Shown: piece by piece, positions 5,491-13,456 of the stretch | How positions within the stretch are numbered: position 1 is the first letter of the stretch | Layout: the number at the start of each line of letters is the position of its first letter | Program-made: the position numbers and the translations under genes | The notes under the pieces: generated by a model | Database searches by the model: none | What the model was told of the DNA's origin: nothing | The model's input: the letters and a program-made list of their open reading frames with translations, nothing else | NCBI RefSeq assembly: GCF_028283685.1 | Contig: NZ_JAPWKF010000007.1 | Coordinates: 620,001 to 684,000 of the forward strand | Origin: Edaphobacter sp. | GTDB lineage: Bacteria > Acidobacteriota > Terriglobia > Terriglobales > Acidobacteriaceae | DNA length: 64,000 nt | Direction of reading: 5' to 3'

Positions 5491-5540
5491 TTGTCATCTC
5501 GACCGAAGCGCAGCGAAGTGGAGAGACCTGCTTCTCAACC
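5491..5540 (+). repeat. dispersed GTCAT-type repeat, copy A
   Basis: The copy begins TTGTCATCTCGACCGAAGCG and continues through GTGGAGAGACC to CTTCTCAACC. It closely matches copies at 12372 and 13149 and is intergenic. Confidence 0.8.
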
Positions 5541-8117: not shown

Positions 8118-10589
8118 ATGTCTGAGAAGCCAAGCAAGTATTACCTCACTACGCCGATCTATTACGTCAATGCGCGTCCCCACATCGGCCACGCCTATAC
8201 GACGATCGCAGCCGACGTCATCGCACGCCGCCAGCGCACCCTGCTCGGAGCCGAAAACGTCTGGTTCCTCACCGGTACCGACGAGCACGGCCAGAAGGTG
8301 CAGCGCTCGGCTCAGGCTGCCGGAATTACGCCGCAGCAGTTCACCGACGAGGTCTCCGCCCAGTTCCGCTCCCTCTGGCAGCGCATGGGCATCACCTACG
8401 ACGACTACATCCGCACCACCGAGCCGCGCCACGTCCAGGGCGTCCAGAAGCTCTTCAACGAGCTTTACTCGCGCGGCCACATCTACCTCGACACCTACAC
8501 CGGCCAGTACTCCGTCGGCGAGGAGATGTTCGTCGACGGCCCCCCCGGCACCATCGGCCCCGACGGCAAGCCCACCGAGACCGTCACCGAAGAGAACTTC
8601 TACTTCCGCCTCAGCGCATACCAGGCCCAGCTCATCGACCTCATCGAGTCCGGCGAGTTCTGCGTAGAACCCGAAGCCCGCCGTAACGAAGTCCTCAGCT
8701 TCCTCCGCGGCAACGTCTCTTCGCCAACCGCTAGCTCTTCGCCAACCGGCAACGCCACTTCGGCCCCCACAGAAGGTGTCATCCTGAGCGAAGCGCGAAG
8801 CGCGGAGTCGAAGGACCTGCGGTTCTCCGCCAAAGGCACCCCATACGTCCCCGGTGCGCTCAAGGATCTCTCCATCTCGCGCAGCTCCTTTGACTGGGGT
8901 ATCCCCGTCCCCGAGCCCGCCGCCAGCACCACGCAGAAGAAGCACGTCATCTACGTCTGGCTCGACGCCCTCGCCAACTACATGACCGCCGTAGGCTACG
9001 GCAGCGACCAGCCCGTCGACCTCGCGAAGCTCCAGAAGTTCTGGCCCGCCGACCTGCACCTCGTCGGCAAAGAGATCATCCGCTTCCACTGCGTCTACTG
9101 GCCCGCCTTCCTGCTCGCCGCAGAGCTGCCTCTGCCGAAAAAAGTACAGGCCCACGGCTGGCTCCTCTTCGAGGAGTCCAAGATGTCGAAGTCGCGCGGC
9201 AACATCGTCCGCACCGAGACCATCCTCGACGCCTTCGGCGGCCTTCTGCTTCCCTCCGCAAAGGTGTCATCCCGACCGGAGCGCAACGCTGCGGAGGGAC
9301 CTGCTTCCCCCGACGCCCCACCGGCGCCCACCAAGGCCGAGCAGGACCTCTTCGGCTCCGACGTCCTCCGCTACTTCCTCCTCCGCGAGATCTCCTTCGG
9401 ACAGGACGGCAGCTTCTCCTTCGATGCCCTCGTGCAGCGCTACAACTCCGATCTCGCCAACGGCTACGGCAACCTCGTCAGCCGCACGCTCACCATGATC
9501 GAGAAGAACCTCGACGCCGCGCACCCCGGGCTCACCTCGCCCGCAACCGACGCGCTCGCCGAGATCGCCAACAAGCTCGCAGGCTCCGCCATCGCTCTCA
9601 TCGACTCCGTCGCCGACGACTTCGCCGACCTTCGCTTCACCCGCGTCCTCACCAACGTCGCCGCCTACATCACCGAAGTCGACGGCTTCTTCTCCTTCGG
9701 CACCCCGTGGAAGCTCGCCAAATCCGACGAGCCCAGCGCGAAAGAAGACCTCCGCGCCATCCTCTCCACCACCGCCGAGGCTATCCGCGTCATCACCGCC
9801 GTCCTCTACCCCATCCTTCCCTACTCCACGGCGAAGGTCTGGGAGCAGCTGGGCCTCGGCGACATCGAAGCCGCAGCAAAGTCCGGCGAACTCAACAACC
9901 TTACCTGGGGAGGCCTCAAGCCCGGCACAAAGCTCGGCACTCTCGGCCCCATCTTCCCCCGCGCACCCAAGGAACTCATTCAGCAGATGACAGACGCAGA
10001 GAACCCCACCCCTCCCACCCCCTCCAGGCTCGTCGACGAGAAGATCGGCCACGTCACCCCCGCGCCCGCCGACCCGACGCACCCCGCCGCAGCCCCGCGC
10101 ACCGGCACCCTTCCCGGCGACAATCCCGGCGCCGATGTCGCTGGCTCCTCGGCCTCGGTACCCGACCTGCCCAAGCCTCCCGCTCCGCACACCGAAGCCC
10201 CCGCCTCCGGCCCCTTCGCCGCGGCCTCCGCAGGCTCCGCCACACCCGACACCCCGCAGATCGCCATCGACGACTTCGTCAAGATCGACCTCCGCGTCGC
10301 CAAGGTCCTCGTCGCCGAGCGCATTCCCAAGGCCGACAAACTCCTCCGCATCGAAGTCGACCTCGGCTACGAGAAGCGCCAGATCCTCTCCGGCATCGCC
10401 CAGTGGTACGCCCCCGAAGACCTCATCGGCCGCCGCATCGTCATCGTCGCCAACCTCGCACCCCGCAAGATGCGCGGCCTCGAATCCCACGGCATGCTCC
10501 TCGCAGCCTCACACGGCGAAGACGGTAAGCCCATCCTCGCCACCTTCGCCGATAGCGACGAGATCGAACTCGGCTCCAGGCTTCGCTAA
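8118..10589 (+). CDS. metG: methionyl-tRNA synthetase with two in-frame repeat-derived insertions
   Basis: MetRS charges tRNA-Met in the cytoplasm. The class I signature HIGH is at residues 22-25 and KMSKS near 355-359; after a Pro/Ala-rich linker (about 650-712) the C-terminal Trbp111/EMAP-II tRNA-binding domain spans about 714-823. The protein is 823 residues, long for the family. Two stretches look foreign: about residues 200-248, between FLRGNV and LKDLSISRSSFDWGIP, and about 377-409, between TILDAFGG and GSDVLRYFLLREI. Each contains a copy of the dispersed GTCAT repeat read in frame, and both flanking segments remain well conserved. The zinc-knuckle cysteines (CxxC) are absent after YTGQYS. 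GGGG upstream may serve as ribosome binding site. Confidence 0.95.
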   Translation: MSEKPSKYYLTTPIYYVNARPHIGHAYTTIAADVIARRQRTLLGAENVWFLTGTDEHGQKVQRSAQAAGITPQQFTDEVSAQFRSLWQRMGITYDDYIRTTEPRHVQGVQKLFNELYSRGHIYLDTYTGQYSVGEEMFVDGPPGTIGPDGKPTETVTEENFYFRLSAYQAQLIDLIESGEFCVEPEARRNEVLSFLRGNVSSPTASSSPTGNATSAPTEGVILSEARSAESKDLRFSAKGTPYVPGALKDLSISRSSFDWGIPVPEPAASTTQKKHVIYVWLDALANYMTAVGYGSDQPVDLAKLQKFWPADLHLVGKEIIRFHCVYWPAFLLAAELPLPKKVQAHGWLLFEESKMSKSRGNIVRTETILDAFGGLLLPSAKVSSRPERNAAEGPASPDAPPAPTKAEQDLFGSDVLRYFLLREISFGQDGSFSFDALVQRYNSDLANGYGNLVSRTLTMIEKNLDAAHPGLTSPATDALAEIANKLAGSAIALIDSVADDFADLRFTRVLTNVAAYITEVDGFFSFGTPWKLAKSDEPSAKEDLRAILSTTAEAIRVITAVLYPILPYSTAKVWEQLGLGDIEAAAKSGELNNLTWGGLKPGTKLGTLGPIFPRAPKELIQQMTDAENPTPPTPSRLVDEKIGHVTPAPADPTHPAAAPRTGTLPGDNPGADVAGSSASVPDLPKPPAPHTEAPASGPFAAASAGSATPDTPQIAIDDFVKIDLRVAKVLVAERIPKADKLLRIEVDLGYEKRQILSGIAQWYAPEDLIGRRIVIVANLAPRKMRGLESHGMLLAASHGEDGKPILATFADSDEIELGSRLR
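8717..8748 (+). repeat. 14-bp direct repeat, period 18, within metG
   Basis: CTCTTCGCCAACCG occurs at 8717-8730 and 8735-8748. The 18-base period keeps the reading frame and yields a duplicated Ser-Ser-Pro-Thr stretch at the left edge of the first metG insertion. Confidence 0.85.
8776..8828 (+). repeat. dispersed GTCAT-type repeat, copy B, inside metG
   Basis: The copy begins GTGTCATCCTGAGCGAAGCG and ends near GACCTGCGGTTCTCC. It is translated in frame as part of metG (EGVILSEARSAESKDLRFS) with no stop codon. Confidence 0.8.
9264..9311 (+). repeat. dispersed GTCAT-type repeat, copy C, inside metG
   Basis: The copy begins GTGTCATCCCGACCGGAGCG and runs to GGACCTGCTTCCCCC. It is translated in frame (KVSSRPERNAAEGPASP) between the KMSKS region and the conserved GSDVLRYFLLREI. 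Confidence 0.8.
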
Positions 10590-10654: not shown

Positions 10655-10687
10655 GTTGTCATTCCGAGCGAAGCGAGGAACCCCCGC
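10655..10687 (+). repeat. dispersed GTCAT-type repeat, short copy D
   Basis: The copy GTTGTCATTCCGAGCGAAGC continues as GAGGAACCCCCGC. It is shorter than the other copies, with the internal arm missing, and lies between metG and arsR. Confidence 0.65.
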
Positions 10688-10721
10688 ATTCACTCGCGCA
10701 GCCACTGATCCGCAGGACGCC

Positions 10722-12371: not shown

Positions 12372-12430
12372 CTGTCATTTCGACCGGAGCGGCGCAGCCG
12401 CGCAGTGGAGAAACCCGCTTTTCAACCCCA
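12372..12430 (+). repeat. dispersed GTCAT-type repeat, copy E
   Basis: The copy begins CTGTCATTTCGACCGGAGCG, contains an inner GCGGC/GCCGC stem and ends GAAACCCGCTTTTCAACC. It is the closest relative of copy F. Confidence 0.8.
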
Positions 12431-12985: not shown

Positions 12986-13456
12986 GGCCGCCATCCTACC
13001 CACCCGACCAACAGCCTGTCACCACATCAGACCCTAACGCCGGGAAAATCTGCCATCGGACACTCTTTGACGGCACGCAGCAAATCACCCTGGCATATCT
13101 GCCATCTCGCCAATCCGTACAGCGGATATAACGTGCAGCCAAAGAACTCTGTCATCTCGACCGAAGCGGCAAAGCCGCGCAGTGGAGAGACCCGCTTCTC
13201 AACCTCCACCTAGTCCCAGCGCAAACTTCCCTCCGGCCGGCTCCACAAACGCTGTCAACCCCCATCACCCCCTAACCCAAACTCCATCAATAGCATCCAT
13301 CTGCCGATTCACCCCTCCGCATCCGCTAAACTAAGACTGGAGCCAAACGGGCCAACGCTCAGCCAGCGGCCATGCAACTTTGGTAACCGCGCCAATAAAG
13401 TACATCGTTTGAAGACTTTGCATAAAAACGACCCCGGGGAGAGGGGGTAGCCACAC
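12986..13456. other. gene-free region between cupin and tatD
   Basis: These 471 bases separate divergent genes and should hold both promoters. The only structured element I can support is dispersed repeat copy F at 13149-13206. A strong ribosome binding site GGGGAGAGGGGG precedes tatD. No gene or RNA is recognised. Confidence 0.55.
13149..13206 (+). repeat. dispersed GTCAT-type repeat, copy F
   Basis: The copy begins CTGTCATCTCGACCGAAGCG, contains an inner GCGGC AAA GCCGC stem and ends GAGACCCGCTTCTCAACC. It matches copies A and E closely and is intergenic. Confidence 0.85.

Follow-up and report, generated by a model that had tools for sequence, protein, structure and literature searches.

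The MetRS locus and its two long loops

The window analyzed here is a 64,000-nucleotide stretch of an Edaphobacter genome (contig NZ_JAPWKF010000007.1, positions 620,001 to 684,000), and it contains metG, the gene for methionyl-tRNA synthetase (MetRS). The gene product is a bacterial MetRS, with matches to the Pfam families tRNA-synt_1g (E 2.5e-95) and tRNA_bind (E 1.3e-27) and with the class I domains, the fold, and the KMSKS motif all present. At two sites, it carries stretches that are foreign to the family, each of which contains one copy of a short repeat, called here the GTCAT element. We consider it likely, with a probability of roughly 0.85, that these stretches are dispersed GTCAT palindromes, similar to repetitive extragenic palindromes (REPs), that were inserted into two extended and probably disordered loops of the enzyme. 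In effect, the GTCAT element is dispersed and palindromic, is present or absent at the same loops in congeners, is replaced there by unrelated palindromes, and is found in frame in other genes.

A first-pass annotation of the window had already described two non-family stretches of MetRS that contain a GTCAT-type repeat and are translated without a stop codon. Both points are borne out, as conserved anchors bound the two stretches, metG is a single open frame, and each loop has one element, with TGTCAT starting at 8777 in site 1 and at 9265 in site 2 (Table 1). The three copies that had been named outside metG are also present (GTCAT starting at 5493, 12374, and 13151), but that list was incomplete, as a further copy starts at 10658.

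The inserts are predicted as low-confidence loops within the MetRS fold. In alignments to two solved MetRS chains, the metG product is aligned up to residues 194-199 and again from 243-244 at site 1, and at site 2 the alignment stops at 374 and resumes at 410-411. An AlphaFold2 model, made from an alignment of 36 MetRS, has a mean predicted local distance difference test (pLDDT) score of 83.9, and its best solved match is 2x1l, with a template modeling (TM) score of 0.90 by target length. The segments with pLDDT below 50 are residues 1-5, 203-230, 381-387, and 636-712. In the model, the inserts look like loops that separate intact elements; the second follows the helix downstream of the KMSKS region and precedes the next helix. 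The loops that carry the inserts are probably disordered.

Table 1. Features of the metG locus and GTCAT elements of the window
Feature	Position	Strand	Remarks
metG, methionyl-tRNA synthetase, 823 amino acids, C-terminal tRNA-binding domain	8118-10589	+	single open frame
Site 1, 49-residue loop, residues 199-247, between NEVLSFLRG and LKDLSISR	8712-8858	+	measured between conserved anchors
Site 2, 35-residue loop, residues 375-409, between KMSKS region/ILDAFG and DLFGSDVLRYF	9240-9344	+	measured between conserved anchors
GTCAT element, subtype A, within site 1	8777-8824	+	in frame, read GVILSEARSAESKDLRF; outer triplets CCT/AGG
GTCAT element, subtype B, within site 2	9265-9307	+	other phase, read VSSRPERNAAEGPAS; outer triplets CCC/GGG
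GTCAT element, subtype B, outside metG	5492-5540	+	end approximate
GTCAT element, subtype C, short, just downstream of metG	10657-10690	+	end approximate
GTCAT element, subtype B, outside metG	12373-12421	+	end approximate
GTCAT element, subtype B, outside metG	13150-13198	+	end approximate

All six copies of the window lie within its first 16 kb, where the GC skew is -0.23 to -0.32; positions 16001-64000 contain no copy and have a GC skew of -0.03 to -0.18.

Dispersal and structure of the GTCAT element

The resemblance between the MetRS stretches and DNA elsewhere in the genome exceeds chance. With the 631-bp stretch 8715-9345 as a DNA query, 31 other matches were obtained in the same genome (E 2e-14 to 7e-4; 40 of 151 candidates scored). 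A degenerate 19-base core, TGTCATYYYGASCGNAGYG, occurs at 50 sites (30+20) in its 4.79 Mb, and the reversed control core at none. Across 60 genomes of the genus, the core is found 0 to 183 times in each and at least once in 52, with a single match of the reversed control in each of two genomes.

The statistics on copies of the own genome refer to 78 distinct copies from sampled loci. The elements are 29-58 nucleotides long and vary in their inner part. When the triplet that follows GTCAT was compared with the one that precedes A(C/T)C or ACA, the two were reverse complements in 70 of the 74 copies that could be parsed (4 of the 78 could not), with pairs of five types, while in 10000 shuffles of these triplets the mean was 16.6 complementary pairs and the maximum was 30. 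A sample from congener G040 gave 73 complementary pairs out of 83, with 12 copies unparsed. The GTCAT element is, thus, a covarying palindrome. When folded as single-stranded DNA, the site-2 element reaches -11.4 kcal/mol (z -2.80 relative to shuffles).

The MetRS loops in the genus and beyond

MetRS was found in 59 of the 60 genus genomes, and 30 loci, that of the own genome included, were aligned. In this alignment, the inserts are variably present, absent, or replaced. Site 1 has a GTCAT element in 8 of the 30 MetRS (degenerate in L011) and a different palindrome, GGGTGCCCCA, of the form GGGTGCCCCAGGTC...GACCTGGG, in 4, with one species having both. The other 19 have no recognized repeat at this site; 14 of these have loops of 21-25 residues, and five (L010, L017, L023, L026, and L030) have loops of 44-58 residues. 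At site 2, GTCAT is found in 6 of the 30 (degenerate in L032) and a third palindrome, GGCTTCAGCC, in 4, and the remaining 20 have a loop of 11-23 residues with no recognized repeat. The GTCAT elements of site 1 belong to subtypes A and C, and those of site 2 to subtype B. Dispersal is also seen for the two other palindromes, with 28 and 9 matches in G023 and G001, respectively (metG copies included), and with 14, 3, and 57 sites within 3 mismatches in G048, G040, and G030, respectively. In addition, congeners L023 and L028 have a third MetRS insertion of about 21 residues (NPAT..KKPEEVPFEVH) near residue 335, which is not repeat-like by eye.

On a tree of the MetRS core from which both sites had been cut out, and whose resolution is poor at 9 of 27 inner branches, parsimony requires at least 18 changes: 6 for GTCAT and 4 for GGGTGCCCCA at site 1, and 5 for GTCAT and 3 for GGCTTCAGCC at site 2. 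A supply effect, with more cores in genomes where MetRS carries GTCAT, is weakly indicated at most (Mann-Whitney p 0.024, 9 carriers vs 21, relatedness uncorrected).

Beyond these 30, relatives of this MetRS in named genomes numbered at least 583, of which the best 80 were considered; they place the genome with the Acidobacteriota. Of the 80 loci, 35 were put into an alignment. Distant homologues carrying conserved versions of the two segments were not seen among these 35. Between the anchors of site 1, there are 4-5 residues in 31 of them; at site 2, there are no residues in 25 and 8-50 residues in the other ten. Long site-1 loops are found in L091 and L092, from named Edaphobacter, and in L094 and L095, from acidobacterial metagenome-assembled genomes; L094 also has a GTCAT-like VILSEG peptide at site 2. 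Within the genus, both loops are extended in all 30 MetRS, to 11 residues or more. Because members without a recognized repeat keep extended loops, the repeats lie within loops that are long even without them, and, as we read these alignments, the loops would have been extended first and the palindromes would have entered afterwards. As a refinement of the first-pass annotation, the repeat is there but does not make up the stretches alone.

The fact that both loops are kept extended throughout the genus, together with the one common phase of the site-1 copies, might indicate that the inserts are selected functional segments of MetRS, for instance a binding or regulatory appendage, and that the DNA repeats elsewhere are incidental. 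This explanation is highly improbable, as three unrelated palindromes, two GTCAT subtypes, and two phases are found at the same two loops, close relatives lack the repeats, the inserts are predicted at low confidence as disordered loops, and the same elements are present in unrelated proteins. In general, the unrelated palindromes and the different phases favor tolerance, and a benefit for the enzyme is unnecessary to explain the insertion pattern.

A second explanation relates to the inner hairpin, which at one metG position varies between species while being self-complementary and in frame (L009, L014, and L025, and a shorter form in L015). Such differences could arise by local template switching or gene conversion among dispersed copies, in which case insertion would be rare and old and most of the change would be hairpin turnover. 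We find this somewhat unlikely, since the different subtypes, the unrelated palindromes at one loop, and the 18 parsimony changes exceed hairpin turnover.

Other host genes and the translation of the elements

The repeat was also searched for inside other open reading frames, and, among the own copies examined, six further host frames were identified by Pfam: asparaginyl-tRNA synthetase (AsnRS), Alr, P450, RecQ, a gene with MutS_V (two copies), and Dus. The MutS domain V gene is presumably the one known as MutS2. The Dus-like frame (L002, own C7:307171), in which GTCAT is degenerate, ends early at 203 residues and covers profile positions 2-75 of 311; it may reflect a frameshift, a pseudogene, or an assembly error. 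By reading of frames, nine own copies in named genes, MetRS included, are all in the sense orientation, and all three sense phases are used: GVILSE in MetRS; SSRPER in MetRS, P450, and RecQ; and CHSERS in Alr. In the own sample, a crude gene caller placed 18 copies in sense and 1 in antisense (L077) inside genes, and 11 of the 18 were judged to be N-terminal over-calls; such callers over-extend N-termini, and L041, L053, L066, L070, L079, L081, L082, and L088, judged to be such cases by eye, were dropped before host genes were named.

AsnRS offers a second synthetase loop for comparison. The AsnRS search gives a match in all 60 genus genomes, but in 8 the match is weak (best E 6e-8 to 2e-12) and is probably another class II synthetase. 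In these eight genomes, which include G058 (99% complete), AsnRS may be missing or unsampled. Of 30 AsnRS loci, own included, 27 could be parsed and 3 could not. Their single variable loop has GTCAT in 9 of the 27, own included (8 elements share one phase, and 2 have a different one), and GGGTGCCCCA in 5 of the 27. Upstream of its GTCAT copy, the own AsnRS loop (L003) contains a degenerate tandem peptide repeat with units of the GTGINIAAPTD type.

The elements are unusually readable in one direction. Among the 52 that could be delimited out of the 78 copies, 43 are free of stop codons in all three sense frames, compared with 24% expected in mononucleotide shuffles, and none of the 52 is open in all three antisense frames. 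The stop-free sense frames would have helped sense insertions to persist. In-frame copies may, thus, survive when the element is stop-free in its sense frames, as it usually is, and the host loop is free of structure. The earlier suggestion that the repeats are tolerated in loops of an essential enzyme agrees with the presence and absence patterns in the 30 members, the low pLDDT of the inserts within a well-predicted fold, the six other host frames, and the AsnRS loops across the genus. The first-pass annotation had also called the repeats mobile or exapted; mobility is suggested here by the dispersal of the copies and their presence or absence at the same loops, and exaptation is conceivable.

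Orientation of the copies and a possible route of spread

In 77 of the 78 own copies, GTCAT reads on the C-rich strand of its own flanks (mean skew -0.226). The same is true for 21 of 21 copies at the metG loci of congeners and for 30 of 32 copies in sampled stretches of the complete congener G059. In the 1.06-1.20 Mb region of G050, GTCAT has one orientation up to about 1.12 Mb and the opposite one from about 1.126 Mb, and the GC skew changes sign with it, about 8-15 kb from dnaA (1.112 Mb); outside this region, both orientations occur among the matches listed. Similarly, the orientation changes on the own contig C5 somewhere between 57489 and 83209, an interval that contains dnaA (78732). 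As the G050 stretch has genes on both strands, transcription alone does not explain the orientation.

Given that the own copies are nearly all found on the C-rich (lagging-type) strand, the elements could have spread by a replication-linked route that involves single-stranded DNA. Single-stranded, lagging-strand-linked insertion is described for IS608 and ISDra2 (PMC6006769), and, by analogy, insertion of that type would give a strand bias like that of GTCAT.

An RNA-level role could also be considered, in which the elements are transcribed as stem-loops that are kept in the sense orientation because they serve to stabilize or terminate mRNAs, and it is only incidental that they lie in coding sequence. 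The covarying stem and the sense orientation of all nine copies in named genes are in line with this. Nevertheless, we judge such a role improbable, as the 47 copies outside called genes that have two neighbors are 14 convergent, 10 divergent, 14 same-sense, and 9 opposite-sense (by crude calls), and the orientation in G050 tracks GC skew where genes occupy both strands.

Copies do crowd at dnaA in G050, and the own dnaA contig contains 9 of the 50 cores on 93.7 kb of 4.79 Mb. In G050, 76 cores were counted by a loose pattern in the 140 kb around dnaA (G050:C1:1060001-1200000, L171-L177), and, by the strict pattern, at least 31 lie within this region out of 102 genome-wide. Proximity to the origin as the cause of the metG hot spot was rejected because metG is about 1.4-1.9 Mb from dnaA in four congeners, G059, G032, G038, and G040 (the last taken as circular).

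There are also observations that weigh against parts of this account. The orientation switch in G059 is near 0.52 Mb, about 0.2 Mb from dnaA (0.309 Mb), with further local flips, so that a plain origin-to-terminus rule fails. In the G040 sample, the C-rich strand carries only 58 of 96 copies, although it carries 34 of the 47 single ones; the other 49 of the 96 are in inverted pairs. A strict replication-strand rule for every copy is, thus, weakened by both genomes. With regard to structure, 59 of 74 outer triplet pairs in G050 are complementary against a shuffled mean of 59.4, a test that is uninformative because almost every copy carries one triplet, and three other folded elements of the window show no clear gain over shuffles (z 0.16 for the site-1 element, 0.37, and -1.57). 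Taken singly, the three antisense frames are free of stops in 46, 18, and 40 of the 52 elements, so many antisense copies could also be read through. The matched site-1 copies (7) all have one codon phase and the site-2 copies (6) all have another, so some copies may be shared by descent. By the crude gene caller, the G050 stretch has 13 sense and 4 antisense intragenic copies, and the G040 sample has 5 of each, which means that the sense excess is not general. Finally, the GTCAT core is absent within about 1.5 kb on either side of both Y1_Tnp transposase genes found.

In the G040 stretches (L184-L203), each of the 49 paired copies lies within 400 bases of a copy in the opposite orientation, an arrangement like that of doublets of REPINs or of miniature inverted-repeat transposable elements.

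A more ambitious formulation is that GTCAT is a translation-ready mobile palindrome, kept stop-free in all three sense frames and spreading on one replication strand, which in this genus, together with two unrelated families, supplies aminoacyl-tRNA synthetases and repair proteins with new disordered segments in loops that were extended beforehand. Taken as a whole, this formulation is speculative and rather unlikely to hold in full.

Comparison with known repeat systems

The best-known cases of in-frame palindromes within proteins are those of Rickettsia and scattered REP matches. The Rickettsia palindromic elements are reportedly palindromes that code for protein. The present elements resemble them in that short palindromes lie in frame in many unrelated genes, essential ones included (here MetRS, AsnRS, Alr, P450, RecQ, and MutS_V), and also outside genes. 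By contrast, the host is a GC-rich member of the Acidobacteriota, three unrelated palindromes colonize the same loops across species, and there is a strong bias to the C-rich strand; the likeness is drawn from the mode of insertion and not from sequence.

The REPs tagged by CGTC or TGTC are also similar. According to Di Nocera, De Gregorio and Rocco 2013 (PMC3733652), these have a stem-loop and no transposase, and their intragenic hosts include tRNA synthetases, as is the case for GTCAT elements; CGTC repeats are listed there in five phyla, Acidobacteria not among them. The GTCAT elements share the TGTC tag, the stem-loop, and the lack of a linked transposase, the base before GTCAT being T in 66 and C in 9 of the 78 own copies. 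Nevertheless, they are not filed as CGTC REPs because the rest of the structure differs: instead of a stem of 8-9 bp that starts with AT, the first A of the stem is opposite C in 74 of 75 copies, and instead of a loop of 4-5 bases and a CCA-type tail, there are variable inner arms and tails such as ACCTGCTT, ACCTGCGGTT, and ACCCCCGCATT (by reading copies).

Tyrosine transposases with long inverted repeats (TIRtrons or TIRYT) are described for acidobacteria in the same paper (PMC3733652). The own genome has two Y1 transposase genes, L039 (C8:489968) and L040 (C2:249218). Repeats of the GGGTGCCCCA type flank L040 on both sides and L039 upstream only, and both are likely TIRtron-type elements. 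To this extent, there is a likeness to the TIRtrons and to the REPIN/RAYT systems, in which the repeat flanks the RAYT/Y1 transposase gene. GTCAT elements differ from both, as they lie away from the Y1 genes (0 of 2 are flanked) and only GGGTGCCCCA adjoins them, so a role of GTCAT as the flank of the resident transposases is unsupported; the published acidobacterial terminal inverted repeats are compared here by their description. In the literature searched, for the most part papers free of subscription, there was no report of this case, and the literal repeat strings were unmatched. What we take as new is that such elements occur in this host group, that unrelated palindromes have reused the same loops, and that the copies have a strand bias.

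Implications

This free-living soil genus presents many presence and absence states at defined loops of two essential synthetases, and the three unrelated palindromes are independent replicates for the question of how repeat DNA becomes protein. The system, thus, allows tests of which loops accept repeats and of a link between insertion and the replication strand. It also provides a possible explanation for odd, unaligned segments of acidobacterial proteins. If the proposed scheme is true, translation-ready palindromes would be a standing source of protein-length evolution.

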